Of a stretch of DNA of 64,000 bases, positions 6,918-64,000 are shown one piece after another. Source of the stretch: Astropecten irregularis (Eukaryota; Echinodermata; Asteroidea; Paxillosida; Astropectinidae); the NCBI GenBank assembly GCA_963971285.1, contig OZ020248.1, positions 2,728,001-2,792,000 of the forward strand, read 5' to 3'. How positions within the stretch are numbered: the first letter of the stretch is position 1; every line of letters begins with the position of its first letter. The notes under the pieces are model-generated. The model made no database searches. It saw only the letters and a list, made by a program, of their open reading frames with translations, and was not told the DNA's origin. Both the position numbers and the translations under genes were made by a program.

Positions 6918-7527
6918 CTGTCATCAAAAGACGTGCCTTCCCAAACACCTGCCAATTATAAATCTTATATTAAATTATGTTATTATGTTTATACACAGAT
7001 TAATTAAAACAAAGCTAAAAAATCAAAAACAAAAACACAAAACAATCATCATTATTATTTATTAATTGATTTATTAATTTTAAACATAAAAAGCACGTTT
7101 TCATAAGGCATTTGACTTCGTGTATAATTTAATTAATATTTTAATTAAAATTGTATTGTGCCATTTTATCTAATAATTATGGTATCACCATAATTTATTT
7201 CTTCACGGTTTCAGCCACAAGCAAAACATATTATCATGATGACATTAAAAAACATTAATGCAAATAGCCTACATGTTGTACACTGCTGCTGCAAACTGCA
7301 TGGATTCTTGTTTGTGTACGTTTTCCCATAGGGACCGAGTTGGTCACGGACCGAGTTGGTCACGGACCGAGTTGGTCACGGACCGAGTTGGCCTCGGACC
7401 GAGTTGGCCACGGACCGAGTTGGTCACGGACCGAGTTGGCTTCGGACCGAGTTGGTCTCGGACCGAGTTGGTCACGGACCGAGTTGACTCGGACCGAGTT
7501 GGTTACGGACCGAGTTGACTGGCACCC
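6534..7527. mobile_element. 994-bp foldback transposon with tandem-repeat arms
   Basis: The left arm (6541-6715) is about 11 copies of a 15-16-bp unit, AACTCGGTCCGTGACC and variants. The right arm (7327-7520) is about 12 copies of the complementary unit. The order of variants (GTAACC, GAGTC, GTGACC from the outside; CCCTAT at the inner edge) matches between arms. The arms enclose about 610 bp of AT-rich sequence with a long A-run and no open frame of note. An exact TTTTAATT lies on each side (6526-6533 and 7528-7535), consistent with an 8-bp target duplication. The element ends about 430 bp before the IQCK start codon. Proline/serine/arginine-rich frames across the arms are products of the repeat. 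Confidence 0.8.
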
Positions 7528-38445: not shown

Positions 38446-40485
38446 GTAATCCCCCACGGACAACATTTACCTAAAATTGTGTTCACCTAACTACAAACAT
38501 AGCATTAATCCTCAATATTGAAGTTTCTTGATGTGAATTTTAAGCTACATTTTACCATTCCGCATTTGCCAAGAATAAGCCATTTTCTTTCGAATTTCCA
38601 AGTTGTTTGGTCATTTACATATCATGAATATTCATGTTTTCCTCAAGATGATGAGGTAGAAGAGGGGATTCGCTTTCCTTATGAATATTTATACGCAGTG
38701 TGTTGCATATTAATATATTATATTAATAGATGCACTCCGATTATTTGTATTTGTTATTCTTTAACATTGTACAGAATTAAACGCCACTACAAGGGTGCAC
38801 CCAAGTAAATAGTCCTAAAATCAGTCCGCCGAGCTCATTAATAAAAGTTAAGCACTCAATATATTTTAAATAAGAGAGTTGTGAGAGCTATGGAAATGAA
38901 GGATTGAAGAAATATGGCACTGGACCTCCTGCCTGGACTCTGGGCTTCCATTTATGAGCAGTGTGATGCAATTGGGTGAGAAAAGTGGGTCTATTTCAGC
39001 CGCTTTTCCCTCTTCAAATTTGCAGAGGGATGTTTTTTTAATGGCTTCTTTGACTGGAGTGATCCATATACCTTGTTTTAAGGGGTGGTCAGCTGAGAAT
39101 GAGTATATCTCAAAAATTCAAAGGTCAACCCACCATAAAATGAAAAGAAAATGAAAGGTGACATATGTTTCATCATCATTTTCTTTTGTGCAACTTGAAC
39201 AGCTGCGCGCAGGACACCAAATCACCAAGCTACCCCCCCCCCAAAAAAAAAATCATGAAAAGAAATGGACACCCATGTCTATGGGAGTTTATTTACTTGA
39301 ATGCAACCATAACGCGGGCGATCGGCGAGCCTCGGCATCGCCGTCCATACGCCGACCAAGTCGAAGGCCCGAACTCGTACGCCGACCGACTCGTACGCCA
39401 ACCAACTCGTACGACGACCAACTCGTACGCCACCAGCACATTAAGATTGTACGTAGTTTGTATTAACAAAATAAACAAGCACTGAGTGTGCCGTGCTCGT
39501 CCACGTCGGTGGGGGGCAAACCTAATTTGAATATAATCTTGATATAATAATTTCTCACACTACAACGTGCACTGTGTTCATCAGTCTAATTAATTAGCTT
39601 CGCTCTGTTGAGCTGACAAATTTATGTCAAAAGCAGGGGAATTATATCCTATGGTTACCGAAAAAGTACAATACACACTGGCATAAGAACAGCTTAAAAC
39701 GACGTCACATTCATAAGCCAATCAGAGTAGGGAAAGCTAAAAATGTATTTCCAAACACTGTTAAGGGCCAATCACGTTTATTCCAATTCCAGGCTATTCC
39801 AACACCAGCAGGGTTGTAATGTTTCTGGGTTAATCAGGAAAGTTAAACTTTCTCTTATGTTTCCTCCTCAATATATTTTAAATAAGAGAGTTGTGAGAGC
39901 TATGGAAATGAAGGATTGAAGAAATATGGCACTGGACCTCCTGCCTGGACTCTGGGCTTCCATTTATGAGCAGTGTGATGCAATTGGGTGAGAAAAGTGG
40001 GTCTATTTCAGCCGCTTTTCCCTCTTCAAATTTGCAGAGGGATGTTTTTTTAATGGCTTCTTTGACTGGAGTGATCCATATACCTTGTTTTAAGGGGTGG
40101 TCAGCTGAGAATGAGTATATCTCAAAAATTCAAAGGTCAACCCACCATAAAATGAAAAGAAAATGAAAGGTGACATATGTTTCATCATCATTTTCTTTTG
40201 TGCAACTTGAACAGCTGCGCGCAGGACACCAAATCACCAAGCTACCCCCCCCCCCCCCCAAAAAAAAATCATGAAAAGAAATGGACACCCATGTCTATGG
40301 GAGTTTATTTACTTGAATGCAACCATAACGCGGGCGATCGGCGAGCCTCGGCATCGCCGTCCATACGCCGACCAAGTCGAAGGCCCGAACTCGTACGCCG
40401 ACCGACTCGTACGCCAACCAACTCGTACGACGACCAACTCGTACGCCACCAGCACATTAAGATTGTACGTAGTTTGTATTAACAA

Positions 40486-40491
40486 AATAAA
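40486..40491 (+). terminator. poly(A)-signal-like site in each satellite unit (example copy)
   Basis: AATAAA here is followed within 10-45 bp by a GT-rich run (GAGTGTGCCGTG .. GTCGGTGGGGGG), the layout of a metazoan cleavage/polyadenylation site. It lies about 600 bp downstream of the TATA-like block that opens the same unit and recurs in every copy. Confidence 0.35.
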
Positions 40492-40717
40492 CAAGCACTG
40501 AGTGTGCCGTGCTCGTCCACGTCGGTGGGGGGCAAACCTAATTTGAATATAATCTTGATATAATAATTTCTCACACTACAACGTGCACTGTGTTCATCAG
40601 TCTAATTAATTAGCTTCGCTCTGTTGAGCTGACAAATTTATGTCAAAAGCAGGGGAATTATATCCTATGGTTACCGAAAAAGTACAATACACACTGGCAT
40701 AAGAACAGCTTAAAACG

Positions 40718-40902
40718 ACGTCACATTCATAAGCCAATCAGAGTAGGGAAAGCTAAAAATGTATTTCCAAACACTGTTAAGGGCCAATCACGTTTATTCC
40801 AATTCCAGGCTATTCCAACACCAGCAGGGTTGTAATGTTTCTGGGTTAATCAGGAAAGTTAAACTTTCTCTTATGTTTCCTCCTCAATATATTTTAAATA
40901 AG
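40718..40902 (+). promoter_or_regulatory. promoter-like block in each satellite unit (example copy)
   Basis: In the order of a Pol II promoter lie a CRE core (ACGTCA, 40718-40723), a CCAAT box in a full NF-Y context (AGCCAATCAG, CCAAT at 40734), a second one (GGCCAATCAC, CCAAT at 40784), and a TATA-like TATATTTTAAATAAG at about 40888-40902, just across the unit boundary. TAATTAATTA, a paired homeodomain-type site, lies further upstream in the unit. The same block is present in every copy. Function is inference from motifs only. Confidence 0.35.
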
Positions 40903-43900
40903 AGAGTTGTGAGAGCTATGGAAATGAAGGATTGAAGAAATATGGCACTGGACCTCCTGCCTGGACTCTGGGCTTCCATTTATGAGCAGTGTGATGCAAT
41001 TGGGTGAGAAAAGTGGGTCTATTTCAGCCGCTTTTCCCTCTTCAAATTTGCAGAGGGATGTTTTTTTAATGGCTTCTTTGACTGGAGTGATCCATATACC
41101 TTGTTTTAAGGGGTGGTCAGCTGAGAATGAGTATATCTCAAAAATTCAAAGGTCAACCCACCATAAAATGAAAAGAAAATGAAAGGTGACATATGTTTCA
41201 TCATCATTTTCTTTTGTGCAACTTGAACAGCTGCGCGCAGGACACCAAATCACCAAGCTACCCCCCCCCAAAAAAAATCATGAAAAGAAATGGACACCCA
41301 TGTCTATGGGAGTTTATTTACTTGAATGCAACCATAACGCGGGCGATCGGCGAGCCTCGGCATCGCCGTCCATACGCCGACCAAGTCGAAGGCCCGAACT
41401 CGTACGCCGACCGACTCGTACGCCAACCAACTCGTACGACGACCAACTCGTACGCCACCAGCACATTAAGATTGTACGCAGTTTGTATTAACAAAATAAA
41501 CAAGCACTGAGTGTGCCGTGCTCGTCCACGTCGGTGGGGGGCAAACCTAATTTGAATATAATCTTGATATAATAATTTCTCACACTACAACGTGCACTGT
41601 GTTCATCAGTCTAATTAATTAGCTTCGCTCTGTTGAGCTGACAAATTTATGTCAAAAGCAGGGGAATTATATCCTATGGTTACCGAAAAAGTACAATACA
41701 CACTGGCATAAGAACAGCTTAAAACGACGTCACATTCATAAGCCAATCAGAGTAGGGAAAGCTAAAAATGTATTTCCAAACACTGTTAAGGGCCAATCAC
41801 GTTTATTCCAATTCCAGGCTATTCCAACACCAGCAGGGTTGTAATGTTTCTGGGTTAATCAGGAAAGTTAAACTTTCTCTTATGTTTCCTCCTCAATATA
41901 TTTTAAATAAGAGAGTTGTGAGAGCTATGGAAATGAAGGATTGAAGAAATATGGCACTGGACCTCCTGCCTGGACTCTGGGCTTCCATTTATGAGCAGTG
42001 TGATGCAATTGGGTGAGAAAAGTGGGTCTATTTCAGCCGCTTTTCCCTCTTCAAATTTGCAGAGGGATGTTTTTTTAATGGCTTCTTTGACTGGAGTGAT
42101 CCATATACCTTGTTTTAAGGGGTGGTCAGCTGAGAATGAGTATATCTCAAAAATTCAAAGGTCAACCCACCATAAAATGAAAAGAAAATGAAAGGTGACA
42201 TATGTTTCATCATCATTTTCTTTTGTGCAACTTGAACAGCTGCGCGCAGGACACCAAATCACCAAGCTACCCCCCCCCCCAAAAAAAAAATCATGAAAAG
42301 AAATGGACACCCATGTCTATGGGAGTTTATTTACTTGAATGCAACCATAACGCGGGCGATCGGCGAGCCTCGGCATCGCCGTCCATACGCCGACCAAGTC
42401 GAAGGCCCGAACTCGTACGCCGACCGACTCGTACGCCAACCAACTCGTACGACGACCAACTCGTACGCCACCAGCACATTAAGATTGTACGTAGTTTGTA
42501 TTAACAAAATAAACAAGCACTGAGTGTGCCGTGCTCGTCCACGTCGGTGGGGGGCAAACCTAATTTGAATATAATCTTGATATAATAATTTCTCACACTA
42601 CAACGTGCACTGTGTTCATCAGTCTAATTAATTAGCTTCGCTCTGTTGAGCTGACAAATTTATGTCAAAAGCAGGGGAATTATATCCTATGGTTACCGAA
42701 AAAGTACAATACACACTGGCATAAGAACAGCTTAAAACGACGTCACATTCATAAGCCAATCAGAGTAGGGAAAGCTAAAAATGTATTTCCAAACACTGTT
42801 AAGGGCCAATCACGTTTATTCCAATTCCAGGCTATTCCAACACCAGCAGGGTTGTAATGTTTCTGGGTTAATCAGGAAAGTTAAACTTTCTCTTATGTTT
42901 CCTCCTCAATATATTTTAAATAAGAGAGTTGTGAGAGCTATGGAAATGAAGGATTGAAGAAATATGGCACTGGACCTCCTGCCTGGACTCTGGGCTTCCA
43001 TTTATGAGCAGTGTGATGCAATTGGGTGAGAAAAGTGGGTCTATTTCAGCCGCTTTTCCCTCTTCAAATTTGCAGAGGGATGTTTTTTTAATGGCTTCTT
43101 TGACTGGAGTGATCCATATACCTTGTTTTAAGGGGTGGTCAGCTGAGAATGAGTATATCTCAAAAATTCAAAGGTCAACCCACCATAAAATGAAAAGAAA
43201 ATGAAAGGTGACATATGTTTCATCATCATTTTCTTTTGTGCAACTTGAACAGCTGCGCGCAGGACACCAAATCACCAAGCTACCCCCCCCCAAAAAAAAA
43301 AATCATGAAAAGAAATGGACACCCATGTCTATGGGAGTTTATTTACTTGAATGCAACCATAACGCGGGCGATCGGCGAGCCTCGGCATCGCCGTCCATAC
43401 GCCGACCAAGTCGAAGGCCCGAACTCGTACGCCGACCGACTCGTACGCCAACCAACTCGTACGACGACCAACTCGTACGCCACCAGCACATTAAGATTGT
43501 ACGTAGTTTGTATTAACAAAATAAACAAGCACTGAGTGTGCCGTGCTCGTCCACGTCGGTGGGGGGCAAACCTAATTTGAATATAATCTTGATATAATAA
43601 TTTCTCACACTACAACGTGCACTGTGTTCATCAGTCTAATTAATTAGCTTCGCTCTGTTGAGCTGACAAATTTATGTCAAAAGCAGGGGAATTATATCCT
43701 ATGGTTACCGAAAAAGTACAATACACACTGGCATAAGAACAGCTTAAAACGACGTCACATTCATAAGCCAATCAGAGTAGGGAAAGCTAAAAATGTATTT
43801 CCAAACACTGTTAAGGGCCAATCACGTTTATTCCAATTCCAGGCTATTCCAACACCAGCAGGGTTGTAATGTTTCTGGGTTAATCAGGAAAGTTAAACTT

Positions 43901-46900
43901 TCTCTTATGTTTCCTCCTCAATATATTTTAAATAAGAGAGTTGTGAGAGCTATGGAAATGAAGGATTGAAGAAATATGGCACTGGACCTCCTGCCTGGAC
44001 TCTGGGCTTCCATTTATGAGCAGTGTGATGCAATTGGGTGAGAAAAGTGGGTCTATTTCAGCCGCTTTTCCCTCTTCAAATTTGCAGAGGGATGTTTTTT
44101 TAATGGCTTCTTTGACTGGAGTGATCCATATACCTTGTTTTAAGGGGTGGTCAGCTGAGAATGAGTATATCTCAAAAATTCAAAGGTCAACCCACCATAA
44201 AATGAAAAGAAAATGAAAGGTGACATATGTTTCATCATCATTTTCTTTTGTGCAACTTGAACAGCTGCGCGCAGGACACCAAATCACCAAGCTACCCCCC
44301 CCCCCCAAAAAAAAATCATGAAAAGAAATGGACACCCATGTCTATGGGAGTTTATTTACTTGAATGCAACCATAACGCGGGCGATCGGCGAGCCTCGGCA
44401 TCGCCGTCCATACGCCGACCAAGTCGAAGGCCCGAACTCGTACGCCGACCGACTCGTACGCCAACCAACTCGTACGACGACCAACTCGTACGCCACCAGC
44501 ACATTAAGATTGTACGTAGTTTGTATTAACAAAATAAACAAGCACTGAGTGTGCCGTGCTCGTCCACGTCGGTGGGGGGCAAACCTAATTTGAATATAAT
44601 CTTGATATAATAATTTCTCACACTACAACGTGCACTGTGTTCATCAGTCTAATTAATTAGCTTCGCTCTGTTGAGCTGACAAATTTATGTCAAAAGCAGG
44701 GGAATTATATCCTATGGTTACCGAAAAAGTACAATACACACTGGCATAAGAACAGCTTAAAACGACGTCACATTCATAAGCCAATCAGAGTAGGGAAAGC
44801 TAAAAATGTATTTCCAAACACTGTTAAGGGCCAATCACGTTTATTCCAATTCCAGGCTATTCCAACACCAGCAGGGTTGTAATGTTTCTGGGTTAATCAG
44901 GAAAGTTAAACTTTCTCTTATGTTTCCTCCTCAATATATTTTAAATAAGAGAGTTGTGAGAGCTATGGAAATGAAGGATTGAAGAAATATGGCACTGGAC
45001 CTCCTGCCTGGACTCTGGGCTTCCATTTATGAGCAGTGTGATGCAATTGGGTGAGAAAAGTGGGTCTATTTCAGCCGCTTTTCCCTCTTCAAATTTGCAG
45101 AGGGATGTTTTTTTAATGGCTTCTTTGACTGGAGTGATCCATATACCTTGTTTTAAGGGGTGGTCAGCTGAGAATGAGTATATCTCAAAAATTCAAAGGT
45201 CAACCCACCATAAAATGAAAAGAAAATGAAAGGTGACATATGTTTCATCATCATTTTCTTTTGTGCAACTTGAACAGCTGCGCGCAGGACACCAAATCAC
45301 CAAGCTACCCCCCCCAAAAAAAAATCATGAAAAGAAATGGACACCCATGTCTATGGGAGTTTATTTACTTGAATGCAACCATAACGCGGGCGATCGGCGA
45401 GCCTCGGCATCGCCGTCCATACGCCGACCAAGTCGAAGGCCCGAACTCGTACGCCGACCGACTCGTACGCCAACCAACTCGTACGACGACCAACTCGTAC
45501 GCCACCAGCACATTAAGATTGTACGCAGTTTGTATTAACAAAATAAACAAGCACTGAGTGTGCCGTGCTCGTCCACGTCGGTGGGGGGCAAACCTAATTT
45601 GAATATAATCTTGATATAATAATTTCTCACACTACAACGTGCACTGTGTTCATCAGTCTAATTAATTAGCTTCGCTCTGTTGAGCTGACAAATTTATGTC
45701 AAAAGCAGGGGAATTATATCCTATGGTTACCGAAAAAGTACAATACACACTGGCATAAGAACAGCTTAAAACGACGTCACATTCATAAGCCAATCAGAGT
45801 AGGGAAAGCTAAAAATGTATTTCCAAACACTGTTAAGGGCCAATCACGTTTATTCCAATTCCAGGCTATTCCAACACCAGCAGGGTTGTAATGTTTCTGG
45901 GTTAATCAGGAAAGTTAAACTTTCTCTTATGTTTCCTCCTCAATATATTTTAAATAAGAGAGTTGTGAGAGCTATGGAAATGAAGGATTGAAGAAATATG
46001 GCACTGGACCTCCTGCCTGGACTCTGGGCTTCCATTTATGAGCAGTGTGATGCAATTGGGTGAGAAAAGTGGGTCTATTTCAGCCGCTTTTCCCTCTTCA
46101 AATTTGCAGAGGGATGTTTTTTTAATGGCTTCTTTGACTGGAGTGATCCATATACCTTGTTTTAAGGGGTGGTCAGCTGAGAATGAGTATATCTCAAAAA
46201 TTCAAAGGTCAACCCACCATAAAATGAAAAGAAAATGAAAGGTGACATATGTTTCATCATCATTTTCTTTTGTGCAACTTGAACAGCTGCGCGCAGGACA
46301 CCAAATCACCAAGCTACCCCCCCCCCCCCAAAAAAAAATCATGAAAAGAAATGGACACCCATGTCTATGGGAGTTTATTTACTTGAATGCAACCATAACG
46401 CGGGCGATCGGCGAGCCTCGGCATCGCCGTCCATACGCCGACCAAGTCGAAGGCCCGAACTCGTACGCCGACCGACTCGTACGCCAACCAACTCGTACGA
46501 CGACCAACTCGTACGCCACCAGCACATTAAGATTGTACGTAGTTTGTATTAACAAAATAAACAAGCACTGAGTGTGCCGTGCTCGTCCACGTCGGTGGGG
46601 GGCAAACCTAATTTGAATATAATCTTGATATAATAATTTCTCACACTACAACGTGCACTGTGTTCATCAGTCTAATTAATTAGCTTCGCTCTGTTGAGCT
46701 GACAAATTTATGTCAAAAGCAGGGGAATTATATCCTATGGTTACCGAAAAAGTACAATACACACTGGCATAAGAACAGCTTAAAACGACGTCACATTCAT
46801 AAGCCAATCAGAGTAGGGAAAGCTAAAAATGTATTTCCAAACACTGTTAAGGGCCAATCACGTTTATTCCAATTCCAGGCTATTCCAACACCAGCAGGGT

Positions 46901-49900
46901 TGTAATGTTTCTGGGTTAATCAGGAAAGTTAAACTTTCTCTTATGTTTCCTCCTCAATATATTTTAAATAAGAGAGTTGTGAGAGCTATGGAAATGAAGG
47001 ATTGAAGAAATATGGCACTGGACCTCCTGCCTGGACTCTGGGCTTCCATTTATGAGCAGTGTGATGCAATTGGGTGAGAAAAGTGGGTCTATTTCAGCCG
47101 CTTTTCCCTCTTCAAATTTGCAGAGGGATGTTTTTTTAATGGCTTCTTTGACTGGAGTGATCCATATACCTTGTTTTAAGGGGTGGTCAGCTGAGAATGA
47201 GTATATCTCAAAAATTCAAAGGTCAACCCACCATAAAATGAAAAGAAAATGAAAGGTGACATATGTTTCATCATCATTTTCTTTTGTGCAACTTGAACAG
47301 CTGCGCGCAGGACACCAAATCACCAAGCTACCCCCCCCCCCAAAAAAAAATCATGAAAAGAAATGGACACCCATGTCTATGGGAGTTTATTTACTTGAAT
47401 GCAACCATAACGCGGGCGATCGGCGAGCCTCGGCATCGCCGTCCATACGCCGACCAAGTCGAAGGCCCGAACTCGTACGCCGACCGACTCGTACGCCAAC
47501 CAACTCGTACGACGACCAACTCGTACGCCACCAGCACATTAAGATTGTACGTAGTTTGTATTAACAAAATAAACAAGCACTGAGTGTGCCGTGCTCGTCC
47601 ACGTCGGTGGGGGGCAAACCTAATTTGAATATAATCTTGATATAATAATTTCTCACACTACAACGTGCACTGTGTTCATCAGTCTAATTAATTAGCTTCG
47701 CTCTGTTGAGCTGACAAATTCATGTCAAAAGCAGGGGAATTATATCCTATGGTTACCGAAAAAGTACAATACACACTGGCATAAGAACAGCTTAAAACGA
47801 CGTCACATTCATAAGCCAATCAGAGTAGGGAAAGCTAAAAATGTATTTCCAAACACTGTTAAGGGCCAATCACGTTTATTCCAATTCCAGGCTATTCCAA
47901 CACCAGCAGGGTTGTAATGTTTCTGGGTTAATCAGGAAAGTTAAACTTTCTCTTATGTTTCCTCCTCAATATATTTTAAATAAGAGAGTTGTGAGAGCTA
48001 TGGAAATGAAGGATTGAAGAAATATGGCACTGGACCTCCTGCCTGGACTCTGGGCTTCCATTTATGAGCAGTGTGATGCAATTGGGTGAGAAAAGTGGGT
48101 CTATTTCAGCCGCTTTTCCCTCTTCAAATTTGCAGAGGGATGTTTTTTTAATGGCTTCTTTGACTGGAGTGATCCATATACCTTGTTTTAAGGGGTGGTC
48201 AGCTGAGAATGAGTATATCTCAAAAATTCAAAGGTCAACCCACCATAAAATGAAAAGAAAATGAAAGGTGACATATGTTTCATCATCATTTTCTTTTGTG
48301 CAACTTGAACAGCTGCGCGCAGGACACCAAATCACCAAGCTACCCCCCCCCCCCCCCAAAAAAAATCATGAAAAGAAATGGACACCCATGTCTATGGGAG
48401 TTTATTTACTTGAATGCAACCATAACGCGGGCGATCGGCGAGCCTCGGCATCGCCGTCCATACGCCGACCAAGTCGAAGGCCCGAACTCGTACGCCGACC
48501 GACTCGTACGCCAACCAACTCGTACGACGACCAACTCGTACGCCACCAGCACATTAAGATTGTACGTAGTTTGTATTAACAAAATAAACAAGCACTGAGT
48601 GTGCCGTGCTCGTCCACGTCGGTGGGGGGCAAACCTAATTTGAATATAATCTTGATATAATAATTTCTCACACTACAACGTGCACTGTGTTCATCAGTCT
48701 AATTAATTAGCTTCGCTCTGTTGAGCTGACAAATTTATGTCAAAAGCAGGGGAATTATATCCTATGGTTACCGAAAAAGTACAATACACACTGGCATAAG
48801 AACAGCTTAAAACGACGTCACATTCATAAGCCAATCAGAGTAGGGAAAGCTAAAAATGTATTTCCAAACACTGTTAAGGGCCAATCACGTTTATTCCAAT
48901 TCCAGGCTATTCCAACACCAGCAGGGTTGTAATGTTTCTGGGTTAATCAGGAAAGTTAAACTTTCTCTTATGTTTCCTCCTCAATATATTTTAAATAAGA
49001 GAGTTGTGAGAGCTATGGAAATGAAGGATTGAAGAAATATGGCACTGGACCTCCTGCCTGGACTCTGGGCTTCCATTTATGAGCAGTGTGATGCAATTGG
49101 GTGAGAAAAGTGGGTCTATTTCAGCCGCTTTTCCCTCTTCAAATTTGCAGAGGGATGTTTTTTTAATGGCTTCTTTGACTGGAGTGATCCATATACCTTG
49201 TTTTAAGGGGTGGTCAGCTGAGAATGAGTATATCTCAAAAATTCAAAGGTCAACCCACCATAAAATGAAAAGAAAATGAAAGGTGACATATGTTTCATCA
49301 TCATTTTCTTTTGTGCAACTTGAACAGCTGCGCGCAGGACACCAAATCACCAAGCTACCCCCCCCCCCCCAAAAAAAAATCATGAAAAGAAATGGACACC
49401 CATGTCTATGGGAGTTTATTTACTTGAATGCAACCATAACGCGGGCGATCGGCGAGCCTCGGCATCGCCGTCCATACGCCGACCAAGTCGAAGGCCCGAA
49501 CTCGTACGCCGACCGACTCGTACGCCAACCAACTCGTACGACGACCAACTCGTACGCCACCAGCACATTAAGATTGTACGTAGTTTGTATTAACAAAATA
49601 AACAAGCACTGAGTGTGCCGTGCTCGTCCACGTCGGTGGGGGGCAAACCTAATTTGAATATAATCTTGATATAATAATTTCTCACACTACAACGTGCACT
49701 GTGTTCATCAGTCTAATTAATTAGCTTCGCTCTGTTGAGCTGACAAATTTATGTCAAAAGCAGGGGAATTATATCCTATGGTTACCGAAAAAGTACAATA
49801 CACACTGGCATAAGAACAGCTTAAAACGACGTCACATTCATAAGCCAATCAGAGTAGGGAAAGCTAAAAATGTATTTCCAAACACTGTTAAGGGCCAATC

Positions 49901-52900
49901 ACGTTTATTCCAATTCCAGGCTATTCCAACACCAGCAGGGTTGTAATGTTTCTGGGTTAATCAGGAAAGTTAAACTTTCTCTTATGTTTCCTCCTCAATA
50001 TATTTTAAATAAGAGAGTTGTGAGAGCTATGGAAATGAAGGATTGAAGAAATATGGCACTGGACCTCCTGCCTGGACTCTGGGCTTCCATTTATGAGCAG
50101 TGTGATGCAATTGGGTGAGAAAAGTGGGTCTATTTCAGCCGCTTTTCCCTCTTCAAATTTGCAGAGGGATGTTTTTTTAATGGCTTCTTTGACTGGAGTG
50201 ATCCATATACCTTGTTTTAAGGGGTGGTCAGCTGAGAATGAGTATATCTCAAAAATTCAAAGGTCAACCCACCATAAAATGAAAAGAAAATGAAAGGTGA
50301 CATATGTTTCATCATCATTTTCTTTTGTGCAACTTGAACAGCTGCGCGCAGGACACCAAATCACCAAGCTACCCCCCCCCAAAAAAAAATCATGAAAAGA
50401 AATGGACACCCATGTCTATGGGAGTTTATTTACTTGAATGCAACCATAACGCGGGCGATCGGCGAGCCTCGGCATCGCCGTCCATACGCCGACCAAGTCG
50501 AAGGCCCGAACTCGTACGCCGACCGACTCGTACGCCAACCAACTCGTACGACGACCAACTCGTACGCCACCAGCACATTAAGATTGTACGTAGTTTGTAT
50601 TAACAAAATAAACAAGCACTGAGTGTGCCGTGCTCGTCCACGTCGGTGGGGGGCAAACCTAATTTGAATATAATCTTGATATAATAATTTCTCACACTAC
50701 AACGTGCACTGTGTTCATCAGTCTAATTAATTAGCTTCGCTCTGTTGAGCTGACAAATTTATGTCAAAAGCAGGGGAATTATATCCTATGGTTACCGAAA
50801 AAGTACAATACACACTGGCATAAGAACAGCTTAAAACGACGTCACATTCATAAGCCAATCAGAGTAGGGAAAGCTAAAAATGTATTTCCAAACACTGTTA
50901 AGGGCCAATCACGTTTATTCCAATTCCAGGCTATTCCAACACCAGCAGGGTTGTAATGTTTCTGGGTTAATCAGGAAAGTTAAACTTTCTCTTATGTTTC
51001 CTCCTCAATATATTTTAAATAAGAGAGTTGTGAGAGCTATGGAAATGAAGGATTGAAGAAATATGGCACTGGACCTCCTGCCTGGACTCTGGGCTTCCAT
51101 TTATGAGCAGTGTGATGCAATTGGGTGAGAAAAGTGGGTCTATTTCAGCCGCTTTTCCCTCTTCAAATTTGCAGAGGGATGTTTTTTTAATGGCTTCTTT
51201 GACTGGAGTGATCCATATACCTTGTTTTAAGGGGTGGTCAGCTGAGAATGAGTATATCTCAAAAATTCAAAGGTCAACCCACCATAAAATGAAAAGAAAA
51301 TGAAAGGTGACATATGTTTCATCATCATTTTCTTTTGTGCAACTTGAACAGCTGCGCGCAGGACACCAAATCACCAAGCTACCCCCCCCCAAAAAAAAAA
51401 TCATGAAAAGAAATGGACACCCATGTCTATGGGAGTTTATTTACTTGAATGCAACCATAACGCGGGCGATCGGCGAGCCTCGGCATCGCCGTCCATACGC
51501 CGACCAAGTCGAAGGCCCGAACTCGTACGCCGACCGACTCGTACGCCAACCAACTCGTACGACGACCAACTCGTACGCCACCAGCACATTAAGATTGTAC
51601 GTAGTTTGTATTAACAAAATAAACAAGCACTGAGTGTGCCGTGCTCGTCCACGTCGGTGGGGGGCAAACCTAATTTGAATATAATCTTGATATAATAATT
51701 TCTCACACTACAACGTGCACTGTGTTCATCAGTCTAATTAATTAGCTTCGCTCTGTTGAGCTGACAAATTTATGTCAAAAGCAGGGGAATTATATCCTAT
51801 GGTTACCGAAAAAGTACAATACACACTGGCATAAGAACAGCTTAAAACGACGTCACATTCATAAGCCAATCAGAGTAGGGAAAGCTAAAAATGTATTTCC
51901 AAACACTGTTAAGGGCCAATCACGTTTATTCCAATTCCAGGCTATTCCAACACCAGCAGGGTTGTAATGTTTCTGGGTTAATCAGGAAAGTTAAACTTTC
52001 TCTTATGTTTCCTCCTCAATATATTTTAAATAAGAGAGTTGTGAGAGCTATGGAAATGAAGGATTGAAGAAATATGGCACTGGACCTCCTGCCTGGACTC
52101 TGGGCTTCCATTTATGAGCAGTGTGATGCAATTGGGTGAGAAAAGTGGGTCTATTTCAGCCGCTTTTCCCTCTTCAAATTTGCAGAGGGATGTTTTTTTA
52201 ATGGCTTCTTTGACTGGAGTGATCCATATACCTTGTTTTAAGGGGTGGTCAGCTGAGAATGAGTATATCTCAAAAATTCAAAGGTCAACCCACCATAAAA
52301 TGAAAAGAAAATGAAAGGTGACATATGTTTCATCATCATTTTCTTTTGTGCAACTTGAACAGCTGCGCGCAGGACACCAAATCACCAAGCTACCCCCCCC
52401 CCCCAAAAAAAAATCATGAAAAGAAATGGACACCCATGTCTATGGGAGTTTATTTACTTGAATGCAACCATAACGCGGGCGATCGGCGAGCCTCGGCATC
52501 GCCGTCCATACGCCGACCAAGTCGAAGGCCCGAACTCGTACGCCGACCGACTCGTACGCCAACCAACTCGTACGACGACCAACTCGTACGCCACCAGCAC
52601 ATTAAGATTGTACGTAGTTTGTATTAACAAAATAAACAAGCACTGAGTGTGCCGTGCTCGTCCACGTCGGTGGGGGGCAAACCTAATTTGAATATAATCT
52701 TGATATAATAATTTCTCACACTACAACGTGCACTGTGTTCATCAGTCTAATTAATTAGCTTCGCTCTGTTGAGCTGACAAATTTATGTCAAAAGCAGGGG
52801 AATTATATCCTATGGTTACCGAAAAAGTACAATACACACTGGCATAAGAACAGCTTAAAACGACGTCACATTCATAAGCCAATCAGAGTAGGGAAAGCTA

Positions 52901-55900
52901 AAAATGTATTTCCAAACACTGTTAAGGGCCAATCACGTTTATTCCAATTCCAGGCTATTCCAACACCAGCAGGGTTGTAATGTTTCTGGGTTAATCAGGA
53001 AAGTTAAACTTTCTCTTATGTTTCCTCCTCAATATATTTTAAATAAGAGAGTTGTGAGAGCTATGGAAATGAAGGATTGAAGAAATATGGCACTGGACCT
53101 CCTGCCTGGACTCTGGGCTTCCATTTATGAGCAGTGTGATGCAATTGGGTGAGAAAAGTGGGTCTATTTCAGCCGCTTTTCCCTCTTCAAATTTGCAGAG
53201 GGATGTTTTTTTAATGGCTTCTTTGACTGGAGTGATCCATATACCTTGTTTTAAGGGGTGGTCAGCTGAGAATGAGTATATCTCAAAAATTCAAAGGTCA
53301 ACCCACCATAAAATGAAAAGAAAATGAAAGGTGACATATGTTTCATCATCATTTTCTTTTGTGCAACTTGAACAGCTGCGCGCAGGACACCAAATCACCA
53401 AGCTACCCCCCCCCCCCAAAAAAAATCATGAAAAGAAATGGACACCCATGTCTATGGGAGTTTATTTACTTGAATGCAACCATAACGCGGGCGATCGGCG
53501 AGCCTCGGCATCGCCGTCCATACGCCGACCAAGTCGAAGGCCCGAACTCGTACGCCGACCGACTCGTACGCCAACCAACTCGTACGACGACCAACTCGTA
53601 CGCCACCAGCACATTAAGATTGTACGTAGTTTGTATTAACAAAATAAACAAGCACTGAGTGTGCCGTGCTCGTCCACGTCGGTGGGGGGCAAACCTAATT
53701 TGAATATAATCTTGATATAATAATTTCTCACACTACAACGTGCACTGTGTTCATCAGTCTAATTAATTAGCTTCGCTCTGTTGAGCTGACAAATTTATGT
53801 CAAAAGCAGGGGAATTATATCCTATGGTTACCGAAAAAGTACAATACACACTGGCATAAGAACAGCTTAAAACGACGTCACATTCATAAGCCAATCAGAG
53901 TAGGGAAAGCTAAAAATGTATTTCCAAACACTGTTAAGGGCCAATCACGTTTATTCCAATTCCAGGCTATTCCAACACCAGCAGGGTTGTAATGTTTCTG
54001 GGTTAATCAGGAAAGTTAAACTTTCTCTTATGTTTCCTCCTCCAATATATTTTAAATAAGAGAGTTGTGAGAGCTATGGAAATGAAGGATTGAAGAAATA
54101 TGGCACTGGACCTCCTGCCTGGACTCTGGGCTTCCATTTATGAGCAGTGTGATGCAATTGGGTGAGAAAAGTGGGTCTATTTCAGCCGCTTTTCCCTCTT
54201 CAAATTTGCAGAGGGATGTTTTTTTAATGGCTTCTTTGACTGGAGTGATCCATATACCTTGTTTTAAGGGGTGGTCAGCTGAGAATGAGTATATCTCAAA
54301 AATTCAAAGGTCAACCCACCATAAAATGAAAAGAAAATGAAAGGTGACATATGTTTCATCATCATTTTCTTTTGTGCAACTTGAACAGCTGCGCGCAGGA
54401 CACCAAATCACCAAGCTACCCCCCCCCCCCAAAAAAAAATCATGAAAAGAAATGGACACCCATGTCTATGGGAGTTTATTTACTTGAATGCAACCATAAC
54501 GCGGGCGATCGGCGAGCCTCGGCATCGCCGTCCATACGCCGACCAAGTCGAAGGCCCGAACTCGTACGCCGACCGACTCGTACGCCAACCAACTCGTACG
54601 ACGACCAACTCGTACGCCACCAGCACATTAAGATTGTACGTAGTTTGTATTAACAAAATAAACAAGCACTGAGTGTGCCGTGCTCGTCCACGTCGGTGGG
54701 GGGCAAACCTAATTTGAATATAATCTTGATATAATAATTTCTCACACTACAACGTGCACTGTGTTCATCAGTCTAATTAATTAGCTTCGCTCTGTTGAGC
54801 TGACAAATTTATGTCAAAAGCAGGGGAATTATATCCTATGGTTACCGAAAAAGTACAATACACACTGGCATAAGAACAGCTTAAAACGACGTCACATTCA
54901 TAAGCCAATCAGAGTAGGGAAAGCTAAAAATGTATTTCCAAACACTGTTAAGGGCCAATCACGTTTATTCCAATTCCAGGCTATTCCAACACCAGCAGGG
55001 TTGTAATGTTTCTGGGTTAATCAGGAAAGTTAAACTTTCTCTTATGTTTCCTCCTCAATATATTTTAAATAAGAGAGTTGTGAGAGCTATGGAAATGAAG
55101 GATTGAAGAAATATGGCACTGGACCTCCTGCCTGGACTCTGGGCTTCCATTTATGAGCAGTGTGATGCAATTGGGTGAGAAAAGTGGGTCTATTTCAGCC
55201 GCTTTTCCCTCTTCAAATTTGCAGAGGGATGTTTTTTTAATGGCTTCTTTGACTGGAGTGATCCATATACCTTGTTTTAAGGGGTGGTCAGCTGAGAATG
55301 AGTATATCTCAAAAATTCAAAGGTCAACCCACCATAAAATGAAAAGAAAATGAAAGGTGACATATGTTTCATCATCATTTTCTTTTGTGCAACTTGAACA
55401 GCTGCGCGCAGGACACCAAATCACCAAGCTACCCCCCCCCCCCCAAAAAAAAATCATGAAAAGAAATGGACACCCATGTCTATGGGAGTTTATTTACTTG
55501 AATGCAACCATAACGCGGGCGATCGGCGAGCCTCGGCATCGCCGTCCATACGCCGACCAAGTCGAAGGCCCGAACTCGTACGCCGACCGACTCGTACGCC
55601 AACCAACTCGTACGACGACCAACTCGTACGCCACCAGCACATTAAGATTGTACGTAGTTTGTATTAACAAAATAAACAAGCACTGAGTGTGCCGTGCTCG
55701 TCCACGTCGGTGGGGGGCAAACCTAATTTGAATATAATCTTGATATAATAATTTCTCACACTACAACGTGCACTGTGTTCATCAGTCTAATTAATTAGCT
55801 TCGCTCTGTTGAGCTGACAAATTTATGTCAAAAGCAGGGGAATTATATCCTATGGTTACCGAAAAAGTACAATACACACTGGCATAAGAACAGCTTAAAA

Positions 55901-58900
55901 CGACGTCACATTCATAAGCCAATCAGAGTAGGGAAAGCTAAAAATGTATTTCCAAACACTGTTAAGGGCCAATCACGTTTATTCCAATTCCAGGCTATTC
56001 CAACACCAGCAGGGTTGTAATGTTTCTGGGTTAATCAGGAAAAGTTAAACTTTCTCTTATGTTTCCTCCTCAATATATTTTAAATAAGAGAGTTGTGAGA
56101 GCTATGGAAATGAAGGATTGAAGAAATATGGCACTGGACCTCCTGCCTGGACTCTGGGCTTCCATTTATGAGCAGTGTGATGCAATTGGGTGAGAAAAGT
56201 GGGTCTATTTCAGCCGCTTTTCCCTCTTCAAATTTGCAGAGGGATGTTTTTTTAATGGCTTCTTTGACTGGAGTGATCCATATACCTTGTTTTAAGGGGT
56301 GGTCAGCTGAGAATGAGTATATCTCAAAAATTCAAAGGTCAACCCACCATAAAATGAAAAGAAAATGAAAGGTGACATATGTTTCATCATCATTTTCTTT
56401 TGTGCAACTTGAACAGCTGCGCGCAGGACACCAAATCACCAAGCTACCCCCCCCCCCCCAAAAAAAAATCATGAAAAGAAATGGACACCCATGTCTATGG
56501 GAGTTTATTTACTTGAATGCAACCATAACGCGGGCGATCGGCGAGCCTCGGCATCGCCGTCCATACGCCGACCAAGTCGAAGGCCCGAACTCGTACGCCG
56601 ACCGACTCGTACGCCAACCAACTCGTACGACGACCAACTCGTACGCCACCAGCACATTAAGATTGTACGTAGTTTGTATTAACAAAATAAACAAGCACTG
56701 AGTGTGCCGTGCTCGTCCACGTCGGTGGGGGGCAAACCTAATTTGAATATAATCTTGATATAATAATTTCTCACACTACAACGTGCACTGTGTTCATCAG
56801 TCTAATTAATTAGCTTCGCTCTGTTGAGCTGACAAATTTATGTCAAAAGCAGGGGAATTATATCCTATGGTTACCGAAAAAGTACAATACACACTGGCAT
56901 AAGAACAGCTTAAAACGACGTCACATTCATAAGCCAATCAGAGTAGGGAAAGCTAAAAATGTATTTCCAAACACTGTTAAGGGCCAATCACGTTTATTCC
57001 AATTCCAGGCTATTCCAACACCAGCAGGGTTGTAATGTTTCTGGGTTAATCAGGAAAGTTAAACTTTCTCTTATGTTTCCTCCTCAATATATTTTAAATA
57101 AGAGAGTTGTGAGAGCTATGGAAATGAAGGATTGAAGAAATATGGCACTGGACCTCCTGCCTGGACTCTGGGCTTCCATTTATGAGCAGTGTGATGCAAT
57201 TGGGTGAGAAAAGTGGGTCTATTTCAGCCGCTTTTCCCTCTTCAAATTTGCAGAGGGATGTTTTTTTAATGGCTTCTTTGACTGGAGTGATCCATATACC
57301 TTGTTTTAAGGGGTGGTCAGCTGAGAATGAGTATATCTCAAAAATTCAAAGGTCAACCCACCATAAAATGAAAAGAAAATGAAAGGTGACATATGTTTCA
57401 TCATCATTTTCTTTTGTGCAACTTGAACAGCTGCGCGCAGGACACCAAATCACCAAGCTACCCCCCCCCCCCCAAAAAAAAATCATGAAAAGAAATGGAC
57501 ACCCATGTCTATGGGAGTTTATTTACTTGAATGCAACCATAACGCGGGCGATCGGCGAGCCTCGGCATCGCCGTCCATACGCCGACCAAGTCGAAGGCCC
57601 GAACTCGTACGCCGACCGACTCGTACGCCAACCAACTCGTACGACGACCAACTCGTACGCCACCAGCACATTAAGATTGTACGTAGTTTGTATTAACAAA
57701 ATAAACAAGCACTGAGTGTGCCGTGCTCGTCCACGTCGGTGGGGGGCAAACCTAATTTGAATATAATCTTGATATAATAATTTCTCACACTACAACGTGC
57801 ACTGTGTTCATCAGTCTAATTAATTAGCTTCGCTCTGTTGAGCTGACAAATTTATGTCAAAAGCAGGGGAATTATATCCTATGGTTACCGAAAAAGTACA
57901 ATACACACTGGCATAAGAACAGCTTAAAACGACGTCACATTCATAAGCCAATCAGAGTAGGGAAAGCTAAAAATGTATTTCCAAACACTGTTAAGGGCCA
58001 ATCACGTTTATTCCAATTCCAGGCTATTCCAACACCAGCAGGGTTGTAATGTTTCTGGGTTAATCAGGAAAGTTAAACTTTCTCTTATGTTTCCTCCTCA
58101 ATATATTTTAAATAAGAGAGTTGTGAGAGCTATGGAAATGAAGGATTGAAGAAATATGGCACTGGACCTCCTGCCTGGACTCTGGGCTTCCATTTATGAG
58201 CAGTGTGATGCAATTGGGTGAGAAAAGTGGGTCTATTTCAGCCGCTTTTCCCTCTTCAAATTTGCAGAGGGATGTTTTTTTAATGGCTTCTTTGACTGGA
58301 GTGATCCATATACCTTGTTTTAAGGGGTGGTCAGCTGAGAATGAGTATATCTCAAAAATTCAAAGGTCAACCCACCATAAAATGAAAAGAAAATGAAAGG
58401 TGACATATGTTTCATCATCATTTTCTTTTGTGCAACTTGAACAGCTGCGCGCAGGACACCAAATCACCAAGCTACCCCCCCCCCCCCAAAAAAAATCATG
58501 AAAAGAAATGGACACCCATGTCTATGGGAGTTTATTTACTTGAATGCAACCATAACGCGGGCGATCGGCGAGCCTCGGCATCGCCGTCCATACGCCGACC
58601 AAGTCGAAGGCCCGAACTCGTACGCCGACCGACTCGTACGCCAACCAACTCGTACGACGACCAACTCGTACGCCACCAGCACATTAAGATTGTACGTAGT
58701 TTGTATTAACAAAATAAACAAGCACTGAGTGTGCCGTGCTCGTCCACGTCGGTGGGGGGCAAACCTAATTTGAATATAATCTTGATATAATAATTTCTCA
58801 CACTACAACGTGCACTGTGTTCATCAGTCTAATTAATTAGCTTCGCTCTGTTGAGCTGACAAATTTATGTCAAAAGCAGGGGAATTATATCCTATGGTTA

Positions 58901-61900
58901 CCGAAAAAGTACAATACACACTGGCATAAGAACAGCTTAAAACGACGTCACATTCATAAGCCAATCAGAGTAGGGAAAGCTAAAAATGTATTTCCAAACA
59001 CTGTTAAGGGCCAATCACGTTTATTCCAATTCCAGGCTATTCCAACACCAGCAGGGTTGTAATGTTTCTGGGTTAATCAGGAAAGTTAAACTTTCTCTTA
59101 TGTTTCCTCCTCAATATATTTTAAATAAGAGAGTTGTGAGAGCTATGGAAATGAAGGATTGAAGAAATATGGCACTGGACCTCCTGCCTGGACTCTGGGC
59201 TTCCATTTATGAGCAGTGTGATGCAATTGGGTGAGAAAAGTGGGTCTATTTCAGCCGCTTTTCCCTCTTCAAATTTGCAGAGGGATGTTTTTTTAATGGC
59301 TTCTTTGACTGGAGTGATCCATATACCTTGTTTTAAGGGGTGGTCAGCTGAGAATGAGTATATCTCAAAAATTCAAAGGTCAACCCACCATAAAATGAAA
59401 AGAAAATGAAAGGTGACATATGTTTCATCATCATTTTCTTTTGTGCAACTTGAACAGCTGCGCGCAGGACACCAAATCACCAAGCTACCCCCCCCCCCAA
59501 AAAAAAAATCATGAAAAGAAATGGACACCCATGTCTATGGGAGTTTATTTACTTGAATGCAACCATAACGCGGGCGATCGGCGAGCCTCGGCATCGCCGT
59601 CCATACGCCGACCAAGTCGAAGGCCCGAACTCGTACGCCGACCGACTCGTACGCCAACCAACTCGTACGACGACCAACTCGTACGCCACCAGCACATTAA
59701 GATTGTACGTAGTTTGTATTAACAAAATAAACAAGCACTGAGTGTGCCGTGCTCGTCCACGTCGGTGGGGGGCAAACCTAATTTGAATATAATCTTGATA
59801 TAATAATTTCTCACACTACAACGTGCACTGTGTTCATCAGTCTAATTAATTAGCTTCGCTCTGTTGAGCTGACAAATTTATGTCAAAAGCAGGGGAATTA
59901 TATCCTATGGTTACCGAAAAAGTACAATACACACTGGCATAAGAACAGCTTAAAACGACGTCACATTCATAAGCCAATCAGAGTAGGGAAAGCTAAAAAT
60001 GTATTTCCAAACACTGTTAAGGGCCAATCACGTTTATTCCAATTCCAGGCTATTCCAACACCAGCAGGGTTGTAATGTTTCTGGGTTAATCAGGAAAGTT
60101 AAACTTTCTCTTATGTTTCCTCCTCAATATATTTTAAATAAGAGAGTTGTGAGAGCTATGGAAATGAAGGATTGAAGAAATATGGCACTGGACCTCCTGC
60201 CTGGACTCTGGGCTTCCATTTATGAGCAGTGTGATGCAATTGGGTGAGAAAAGTGGGTCTATTTCAGCCGCTTTTCCCTCTTCAAATTTGCAGAGGGATG
60301 TTTTTTTAATGGCTTCTTTGACTGGAGTGATCCATATACCTTGTTTTAAGGGGTGGTCAGCTGAGAATGAGTATATCTCAAAAATTCAAAGGTCAACCCA
60401 CCATAAAATGAAAAGAAAATGAAAGGTGACATATGTTTCATCATCATTTTCTTTTGTGCAACTTGAACAGCTGCGCGCAGGACACCAAATCACCAAGCTA
60501 CCCCCCCCCCAAAAAAAATCATGAAAAGAAATGGACACCCATGTCTATGGGAGTTTATTTACTTGAATGCAACCATAACGCGGGCGATCGGCGAGCCTCG
60601 GCATCGCCGTCCATACGCCGACCAAGTCGAAGGCCCGAACTCGTACGCCGACCGACTCGTACGCCAACCAACTCGTACGACGACCAACTCGTACGCCACC
60701 AGCACATTAAGATTGTACGTAGTTTGTATTAACAAAATAAACAAGCACTGAGTGTGCCGTGCTCGTCCACGTCGGTGGGGGGCAAACCTAATTTGAATAT
60801 AATCTTGATATAATAATTTCTCACACTACAACGTGCACTGTGTTCATCAGTCTAATTAATTAGCTTCGCTCTGTTGAGCTGACAAATTTATGTCAAAAGC
60901 AGGGGAATTATATCCTATGGTTACCGAAAAAGTACAATACACACTGGCATAAGAACAGCTTAAAACGACGTCACATTCATAAGCCAATCAGAGTAGGGAA
61001 AGCTAAAAATGTATTTCCAAACACTGTTAAGGGCCAATCACGTTTATTCCAATTCCAGGCTATTCCAACACCAGCAGGGTTGTAATGTTTCTGGGTTAAT
61101 CAGGAAAGTTAAACTTTCTCTTATGTTTCCTCCTCAATATATTTTAAATAAGAGAGTTGTGAGAGCTATGGAAATGAAGGATTGAAGAAATATGGCACTG
61201 GACCTCCTGCCTGGACTCTGGGCTTCCATTTATGAGCAGTGTGATGCAATTGGGTGAGAAAAGTGGGTCTATTTCAGCCGCTTTTCCCTCTTCAAATTTG
61301 CAGAGGGATGTTTTTTTAATGGCTTCTTTGACTGGAGTGATCCATATACCTTGTTTTAAGGGGTGGTCAGCTGAGAATGAGTATATCTCAAAAATTCAAA
61401 GGTCAACCCACCATAAAATGAAAAGAAAATGAAAGGTGACATATGTTTCATCATCATTTTCTTTTGTGCAACTTGAACAGCTGCGCGCAGGACACCAAAT
61501 CACCAAGCTACCCCCCCCCCCAAAAAAAATCATGAAAAGAAATGGACACCCATGTCTATGGGAGTTTATTTACTTGAATGCAACCATAACGCGGGCGATC
61601 GGCGAGCCTCGGCATCGCCGTCCATACGCCGACCAAGTCGAAGGCCCGAACTCGTACGCCGACCGACTCGTACGCCAACCAACTCGTACGACGACCAACT
61701 CGTACGCCACCAGCACATTAAGATTGTACGTAGTTTGTATTAACAAAATAAACAAGCACTGAGTGTGCCGTGCTCGTCCACGTCGGTGGGGGGCAAACCT
61801 AATTTGAATATAATCTTGATATAATAATTTCTCACACTACAACGTGCACTGTGTTCATCAGTCTAATTAATTAGCTTCGCTCTGTTGAGCTGACAAATTT

Positions 61901-64000
61901 ATGTCAAAAGCAGGGGAATTATATCCTATGGTTACCGAAAAAGTACAATACACACTGGCATAAGAACAGCTTAAAACGACGTCACATTCATAAGCCAATC
62001 AGAGTAGGGAAAGCTAAAAATGTATTTCCAAACACTGTTAAGGGCCAATCACGTTTATTCCAATTCCAGGCTATTCCAACACCAGCAGGGTTGTAATGTT
62101 TCTGGGTTAATCAGGAAAGTTAAACTTTCTCTTATGTTTCCTCCTCAATATATTTTAAATAAGAGAGTTGTGAGAGCTATGGAAATGAAGGATTGAAGAA
62201 ATATGGCACTGGACCTCCTGCCTGGACTCTGGGCTTCCATTTATGAGCAGTGTGATGCAATTGGGTGAGAAAAGTGGGTCTATTTCAGCCGCTTTTCCCT
62301 CTTCAAATTTGCAGAGGGATGTTTTTTTAATGGCTTCTTTGACTGGAGTGATCCATATACCTTGTTTTAAGGGGTGGTCAGCTGAGAATGAGTATATCTC
62401 AAAAATTCAAAGGTCAACCCACCATAAAATGAAAAGAAAATGAAAGGTAACATATGTTTCATCATCATTTTCTTTTGTGCAACTGAACAGCTGCGCGCAG
62501 GACACCAAATCACCAAGCTACCCCCCCCCCCCCAAAAAAAAATCATGAAAAGAAATGGACACCCATGTCTATGGGAGTTTATTTACTTGAATGCAACCAT
62601 AACGCGGGCGATCGGCGAGCCTCGGCATCGCCGTCCATACGCCGACCAAGTCGAAGGCCCGAACTCGTACGCCGACCGACTCGTACGCCAACCAACTCGT
62701 ACGACGACCAACTCGTACGCCACCAGCACATTAAGATTGTACGTAGTTTGTATTAACAAAATAAACAAGCACTGAGTGTGCCGTGCTCGTCCACGTCGGT
62801 GGGGGGCAAACCTAATTTGAATATAATCTTGATATAATAATTTCTCACACTACAACGTGCACTGTGTTCATCAGTCTAATTAATTAGCTTCGCTCTGTTG
62901 AGCTGACAAATTTATGTCAAAAGCAGGGGAATTATATCCTATGGTTACCGAAAAAGTACAATACACACTGGCATAAGAACAGCTTAAAACGACGTCACAT
63001 TCATAAGCCAATCAGAGTAGGGAAAGCTAAAAATGTATTTCCAAACACTGTTAAGGGCCAATCACGTTTATTCCAATTCCAGGCTATTCCAACACCAGCA
63101 GGGTTGTAATGTTTCTGGGTTAATCAGGAAAGTTAAACTTTCTCTTATGTTTCCTCCTCAATATATTTTAAATAAGAGAGTTGTGAGAGCTATGGAAATG
63201 AAGGATTGAAGAAATATGGCACTGGACCTCCTGCCTGGACTCTGGGCTTCCATTTATGAGCAGTGTGATGCAATTGGGTGAGAAAAGTGGGTCTATTTCA
63301 GCCGCTTTTCCCTCTTCAAATTTGCAGAGGGATGTTTTTTTAATGGCTTCTTTGACTGGAGTGATCCATATACCTTGTTTTAAGGGGTGGTCAGCTGAGA
63401 ATGAGTATATCTCAAAAATTCAAAGGTCAACCCACCATAAAATGAAAAGAAAATGAAAGGTGACATATGTTTCATCATCATTTTCTTTTGTGCAACTTGA
63501 ACAGCTGCGCGCAGGACACCAAATCACCAAGCTACCCCCCCCCCAAAAAAAAATCATGAAAAGAAATGGACACCCATGTCTATGGGAGTTTATTTACTTG
63601 AATGCAACCATAACGCGGGCGATCGGCGAGCCTCGGCATCGCCGTCCATACGCCGACCAAGTCGAAGGCCCGAACTCGTACGCCGACCGACTCGTACGCC
63701 AACCAACTCGTACGACGACCAACTCGTACGCCACCAGCACATTAAGATTGTACGTAGTTTGTATTAACAAAATAAACAAGCACTGAGTGTGCCGTGCTCG
63801 TCCACGTCGGTGGGGGGCAAACCTAATTTGAATATAATCTTGATATAATAATTTCTCACACTACAACGTGCACTGTGTTCATCAGTCTAATTAATTAGCT
63901 TCGCTCTGTTGAGCTGACAAATTTATGTCAAAAGCAGGGGAATTATATCCTATGGTTACCGAAAAAGTACAATACACACTGGCATAAGAACAGCTTAAAA

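Follow-up and report, generated by a model that had tools for sequence, protein, structure and literature searches.

A satellite array with gene-like signals in the sea star Astropecten irregularis, probably derived from a composite of two MITEs and the sequence between them

How can a long and nearly uniform satellite come to carry, in every unit, what looks like a promoter followed by an AATAAA signal? The question is raised by a 64,000-nucleotide stretch of the genome of the sea star Astropecten irregularis (assembly GCA_963971285.1, contig OZ020248.1, here C11, positions 2,728,001-2,792,000, forward strand), referred to below as the window, whose right-hand part is a tandem array of 1,013-bp units. 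The original prediction, made from the letters of the window, described in each unit a core of the cyclic AMP response element (CRE), two NF-Y-type CCAAT boxes, a TATA-like box, and AATAAA with a GT-rich downstream element, and offered two explanations, namely that short transcription units are repeated in tandem or that a fragment bearing a promoter gave rise to the satellite. Having analyzed the array against the 475.7-Mb genome (168 contigs), we conclude that it is very probably a transposon-derived satellite, which would have arisen from a composite of two copies of a miniature inverted-repeat transposable element (MITE) with a filler between them, and would have been amplified by exchange between the direct MITE repeats.

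The size and uniformity ascribed to the array, more than 25 kb of nearly identical units, were confirmed. The window contains 24 full units (39348-63648), arranged head-to-tail on the plus strand in an array that covers 38855..64000 and continues beyond the window to C11:2,895,589. The length of these units ranges from 1009 to 1016 bp around the 1,013-bp consensus, and apart from a poly-C/poly-A tract they are almost letter-identical, with 16 variable alignment columns, seven of which are gap columns in the poly-C and three lie at the adjacent C/A boundary. The left end had been placed at 38855, which is wrong, as an intact terminal inverted repeat (TIR) of the same element begins at 38793. 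Measured from this position to C11:2,895,589, the whole array comprises ~128.8 kb and ~127 units; a segment of 9.4 kb (C11:2,880,601-2,890,000) lies outside the sequence read, with the array present on either side of it. The array is long, head-to-tail, non-coding and homogenized, i.e. satellite DNA. When its own DNA was used as a genome probe, the array alone was recovered among the best 40 places scored. Just left of the array ends a common dispersed repeat (window 38600-38746), which we found in 39 other places among the best 40 of 1,432 candidates.

Comparison with dispersed copies of its parts establishes the anatomy of the unit directly: it is a hybrid of 455 bp from a MITE, termed here MITE1, and 558 bp of filler, which together make up the 1,013 bp. 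In a representative unit (all features on the plus strand) the filler comprises 45420..45938 (unit positions 1-519) and 46395-46433 (unit positions 975-1013) and has no similarity to MITE1; the MITE1 part (45939..46394, unit positions 520-974) is devoid of the first 62 bp of the element and ends in the right TIR TTTATTTACTTGAATGCAACC. The first copy of the array alone possesses the intact left end (38793..38854, plus strand), i.e. the TIR GGGTGCACCCAAGTAAATAG and a further 42 bp, as revealed by alignment with six single MITE1 copies and with a pair of copies at locus L058; this TIR occurs once in the window and is missing from all later units. On the right the array ends at unit position 787, within MITE1. 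Nested in MITE1 is a remnant of another element, MITE2 (46290..46363, plus strand), of which the window unit retains the right part only. In at least one relative, C30b, a fuller form with a perfect 13-bp TIR (CATGGGTGTCGAT) is inserted in MITE1; with this TIR taken as the border of MITE2 its duplication TCTATGGG measures 8 bp, and a length of 10 bp is also possible; the eight MITE1 copies L058-L064 lack MITE2 and exhibit the insertion-free site. The filler includes a 16-bp minisatellite (45420..45507, plus strand). Two other 16-bp minisatellites, in inverse orientation, are present at 6544-6713 and 7332-7517 of the window, and by eye they look like the 16-bp repeats of the filler.

MITE1 is a dispersed element of ~480 bp, whose ends are GGGTGCACCCAAGTAAATAG and, inverted, GGTTGCACCCAAGTAAATAAA. 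It exhibits the hallmarks of a MITE: a near-perfect TIR of 18-20 bp and a target site duplication (TSD) of fixed length, 4 bp, found both in single copies and in the composites described below. Among six single copies the TSD is perfect in four (TGAA, TCAA, TTAC, ATGA) and agrees in three of four bases in the other two (L061 and L063). The 20-mer of the left TIR has 3,113 sites in the genome at up to two mismatches (none for the reversed control), and a MITE1 24-mer was found in 1,910 places.

Among 100 listed of these 1,910 places, we found 11 same-strand MITE1 pairs 1297-1304 bp apart. In the pair at L058 two MITE1 copies, 99.4% identical to each other, surround an 818-bp filler unrelated to that of the window; we refer to this arrangement as the sister composite. 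A 201-bp probe from the sister filler was ~100% identical at the best 40 of 162 candidates. Six of these 40 places fall within the pairs, and in the best-scored places the sister filler is also found in chains of two or three with steps of ~1298 bp. Six composites of the 11 listed pairs were examined for duplications at their outermost ends, and all six have a perfect outer TSD, in five different words (TACA at L058, ATAA, CTAT, CTAA, and CTAG twice). This is the behavior of a macrotransposon, in which two copies and their cargo are inserted as one. The inner flanks are TATA in all five sister composites tested. In addition, two dimers in which sister filler is joined directly to filler (C12:21377111-21378124 and C1:24207044-24208059) both have a single TATA at the would-be MITE1 position, as expected of an empty MITE1 site (814+480+4=1298); they represent either the product of precise excision or a tandem state that preceded the insertion. 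Taken together, the perfect outer TSDs, the constant inner TATA and the single-TATA dimers lead to the conclusion that direct-orientation MITE pairs carry intervening DNA in this genome.

Direct terminal repeats at constant spacing, single copies, tandem chains and 4-bp TSDs could also suggest a terminal-repeat retrotransposon in miniature (TRIM), i.e. a reduced long terminal repeat (LTR) retroelement, in which the 480-bp repeat would be the LTR, the single copies solo LTRs, and the arrays LTR-internal-LTR chains. LTR elements have TG...CA ends beside the TSD, a primer-binding site and a polypurine tract. Here, however, the TSDs abut GGG...ACC, the TIR is near-perfect over its 18-20 bp, and no purine-rich tract was seen ahead of the second copy (the primer site was judged by eye only). 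Moreover, the identical TATA at both inner edges and the exact filler-filler junctions with one TATA (two of two) fit insertion or excision of a DNA transposon. We consider the TRIM interpretation very unlikely, even though the layout is shared by arrays of the TRIM Cassandra, for which tandem chains of terminal repeat, internal region and terminal repeat are described (PMC7215508); Cassandra is a retroelement with 5S sequences, whereas the ends of the window element resemble those of a DNA transposon.

The gene-like signals can be assigned to the two components of the unit. The ordered set was borne out in all 24 units, each of which has the CRE and two CCAAT boxes, then the TATA-like block, and finally AATAAA with the GT-rich element. 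In the portion of the array that lies within the window, GACGTCA (seven of the eight bases of TGACGTCA), AGCCAATCAG and GGCCAATCAC occur 24 times each, and TATATTTTAAATAAG, ACAAAATAAACAAG (which contains AATAAA) and TGAGTGTGCCGTGCTCGT occur 25 times each, the 25th TATA-like copy (at 38860) being that of the first MITE, ahead of every CRE and CCAAT of the array. With relaxed criteria the ordered set turned up in 57 of 20,000 units simulated with a Markov-1 model, and in none of 754 stretches, on both strands, from the remainder of the window; the set is uncommon by chance, in a test framed only once the motifs were known. In the representative unit (plus strand) the filler harbors AATAAA (45542..45547), followed by the GT-rich stretch, the CRE core GACGTCA (45773..45779), and the NF-Y type sites 1 (AGCCAATCAG, 45788..45797) and 2 (GGCCAATCAC, 45838..45847), and the TATA-like block TATATTTTAAATAAG (45944..45958) belongs to the MITE1 part, 5 bp beyond the filler/MITE junction; from this block to AATAAA the distance is ~610 bp. 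Eight MITE1 copies without this filler were compared. The TATA-like block is exact or has one change in seven of them (it differs in L061), and a CCAAT or CRE core upstream of it was found in none of the eight, within 200 bp read in L058 and ~100 bp in six singles. In a single MITE1-filler-MITE1 composite AATAAA precedes the promoter motifs, and therefore the complete order requires tandem units. The promoter-like order is best explained as a by-product of a filler and a MITE joined in tandem.

These results bear on both explanations offered by the original prediction. If each unit were a short RNA polymerase II (Pol II) transcription unit, a capped start would be expected ~30 bp past the TATA-like block and an end after AATAAA. 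The presence of every motif, in order, in each of the 24 window units speaks for this possibility, as does the state of the motifs at other loci, where exact matches among 24 copies, counted by eye and not all independent, number 20 for GACGTCA, 22 for AGCCAATCAG and 20 for GGCCAATCAC. A 24-mer spanning CRE and CCAAT1 recurs at 1,293 genome sites at up to two mismatches, arrays included, with no site for the reversed control. However, the conservation of CCAAT2 is matched by 10.6% of 10-bp background windows and that of CRE-CCAAT1 by 38% of the windows within the search query, and the conservation of the CRE/CCAAT region is biased upward, because the compared copies were chosen by their likeness to it. 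Selection on the motifs is not supported, their constraint being no higher than that of neighboring sequence. The TATA-like block, moreover, is a MITE feature that occurs without CCAAT, and the order from promoter to AATAAA is confined to tandem units.

The reading frames of the unit add to this. Three plus-strand open reading frames (ORFs) were compared in 10 relatives, a minus-strand ORF of 50 amino acids (aa) being outside the comparison. The 58-aa ORF is full length in three of the 10 (three C12 units), the 66-aa ORF has lost its start codon in all 10, and the 76-aa ORF is either truncated or without its start codon in all 10; an ORF at unit position 830 varies from 10 to 107 aa across the 24 window units. 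A coding peptide was thus rejected, the frames being mostly lost among the relatives, and as to a structured RNA, the unit gave no Rfam match at the gathering threshold. Judged from sequence, we regard it as highly improbable that each unit is a Pol II transcription unit of its own: the TATA-like block and the CRE/CCAAT module come from two separate sources, the frames are mostly lost, and the motifs show no more conservation than the sequence around them. The other explanation, a satellite derived from a promoter-bearing fragment, comes close: the filler contains the CRE and CCAAT boxes, and the remainder derives from a MITE.

The filler/MITE junction of the window is common to ten relatives on other contigs, and among the copies retrieved there is none in which the filler lacks MITE1. 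Related arrays of the same CRE/CCAAT family are located on C9 (24.00-24.15 Mb and 21.735-21.757 Mb), C22 (6.15-6.26 Mb) and C1 (31.134 Mb), with units of ~1,630 bp on C9, ~1,419 bp on C1 and ~1,139 bp on C22, in addition to ~1,260 bp in an array on C12. A piece of C9 taken to find the edge of the array turned out to be array throughout, and the C12 array has MITE1 ends at both borders. A palindromic repeat of ~365 bp, with ends like TTAAAGGTAATATCATAC, adjoins L018, L024, L026, L050, L052 and other copies. A foldback (Tetris-type) element was considered and rejected, since the inverted 360-bp pair around C30b is a separate palindromic repeat that flanks several copies, and the TIR of MITE1 measures ~20 bp. 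Helitron-derived elements have neither TIR nor TSD; both a TIR and a 4-bp TSD are present here, and a Helitron-derived satellite was rejected as well.

In order to account for the array, we propose the following history. MITE1 would have come to flank the 558-bp filler on both sides, in direct orientation, the second MITE being devoid of its first 62 bp. The MITE1-filler-MITE1 composite would then have spread, most likely by means of transposase acting on its outermost ends (macrotransposition). At the C11 locus the direct MITE repeats would have permitted unequal exchange, by which the unit may have been amplified to ~127 copies, and local exchange would keep the units near-identical. Local homogenization is directly visible in the 115 full units compared: identity drops with distance, being 99.63% for units at lag 1 and 99.31% for those at lag 80, units that are close but not adjacent have rare variants in common, and the right edge is the most diverged. 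At each of sites 17 and 276 the minority allele has 37 copies, every one of them in the first 40 units; neither allele was seen in comparable relatives, and for this reason the left third of the array looks youngest. That this third is near-uniform, with its minority alleles confined to the first 40 units, could also be taken as a sign that rolling-circle amplification of extrachromosomal circular DNA (eccDNA) followed by reinsertion, rather than unequal exchange, built the array. The decay of identity and the variants shared by close but non-adjacent units fit repeated local exchange; we regard the rolling circle as rather unlikely and infer unequal exchange as the amplifier, although both may have contributed.

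Two observations weigh against the proposed origin. The C11 array, with its right end truncated, offers no readable TSD, and at the C12 array the flanking bases, CTGC on the left and ACCC or CCCA on the right, form none. It is therefore by analogy with the sister composite that we infer transposition of the composite of the window.

Two of the arrays lie next to host genes. The C11 array ends 137 bp before a start codon (L045:5126, C11:2,895,726), and the C12 array 181 bp before another (C12:20,390,641), in both cases on the same strand as the motifs. For the first two exons of the C11 gene the PDB matches are 1pr9, an L-xylulose reductase (E 2.5e-12), and 1cyd, a carbonyl reductase (E 1.4e-12). 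The first exon of the C12 gene has weak PDB matches only (4fbr, a hemagglutinin, E 0.0032, and 2pxx, E 0.01), and a methyltransferase domain is found further downstream (Pfam E 1.3e-9). Both gaps between array and gene contain the motif TAGAGGGCG, which we take to be similar to the CTCF core.

Judging from these positions, use of the arrays as candidate promoters by the two neighboring genes is possible. The C11 array would in that case serve as a promoter/enhancer cluster for the L-xylulose-reductase-like (DCXR-like) gene, and the C12 array for the methyltransferase gene. Apart from the short distances to same-strand start codons, it fits this interpretation that the last C11 unit retains the CRE, both CCAAT boxes and the TATA-like block, at -525, -510, -460 and -354 relative to the start codon. 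Nevertheless, the general association with genes that the two arrays suggest was not borne out: none of nine other copies has a Pfam-recognizable gene downstream (1.3-3 kb, three same-strand frames), in a test that is weak because even the C11 gene was detected with a score short of the family cut-off (E 0.0027); one match among the nine, with E 0.022, was far below the cut-off and was disregarded. The two cases may also reflect chance or an insertion preference, and we consider a role as promoter clusters decidedly doubtful. A similarly slim chance attaches to the wider proposal that the genome contains a composite-MITE system of recent mobility, which would acquire, transport and multiply the DNA between two MITEs, the CRE/NF-Y module being one such cargo, and whose arrays would serve host genes as promoters or enhancers in many copies, with up to 127 modules at the L-xylulose-reductase-like gene.

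The part of the window to the left of the array contains several other features. On the minus strand, a histone-type 3' stem-loop (31195-31240, Rfam RF00032, 38.1 bits) is located ~360 bp downstream of an ORF of the FAM220 family (31602-32753, minus strand), and no minus-strand ORF of at least 30 aa starts between the two. A 56-bp tandem repeat occupies 25849-26161 (5.6 copies, 97% matches). According to Pfam, the ORF at 1139-2423 (plus strand) matches the NERD domain, and the one at 13248-14066 (minus strand) the amino-acid-transporter family Aa_trans.

Systems related to the one described here are known from other organisms. In maize, pairs of Ac/Ds transposons have been reported to mobilize linked DNA, and composite insertions bring enhancer copies beside a gene (PMC9910405). 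As in those macrotransposons, a pair of elements and the DNA between them move here as one unit; unlike in maize, the ends are those of MITEs, the cargo is below 1 kb, composites are found at many places, and cargo and MITE have given rise to satellite arrays. In Anopheles gambiae, macrotransposition of two neighboring partial copies has been proposed for AgaP2-P12MITE (PMC1562414), where one copy retains the 5' end and the other the 3' end, as in the window element; the available portion of that account mentions neither a satellite array nor a shared cargo. Dimers of transposable elements (TEs) formed by double insertion have been put forward as a substrate of satellite expansion (McGurk and Barbash 2018, as described in PMC12628747), whereas the monomer described here also includes the filler between both copies, and TE-derived satellites have been reviewed (PMC9659126).

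In Drosophila virilis the DNA transposon Tetris (TIR-220) supplies the monomers of long homogeneous arrays (PMC4079207); its repeats are described as lying within its TIRs, whereas here most of a MITE belongs to the monomer. The Tribolium castaneum satellite TCAST is reported to contain a Pol II promoter within its sequence and to occur in TIR elements close to genes as well (PMC3411249), and in view of this report the earlier statement that ordinary satellites seldom carry such signals was too strong. The likeness is one of description rather than of compared sequences: a promoter is reported for TCAST, and a putative one, read from motifs, is present in the window array. In the literature searched, from which most subscription journals were absent, neither this repeat nor a satellite of the MITE-filler-MITE type is described in the titles and beginnings of abstracts listed. 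Nor did we meet there the variant of the transposon-born satellite proposed here, in which the cargo and the MITE of a composite together became the monomer.

The puzzling 'gene-like satellite' is now dissected into a transposon part and a cargo part, together with a reason for the order of its signals. The sister composites provide a clean case of two MITEs that move cargo jointly and leave behind direct repeats able to grow into satellites. Both the link between macrotransposition and the birth of satellites and the effect of promoter-bearing arrays on adjacent genes are testable in the genome of A. irregularis.

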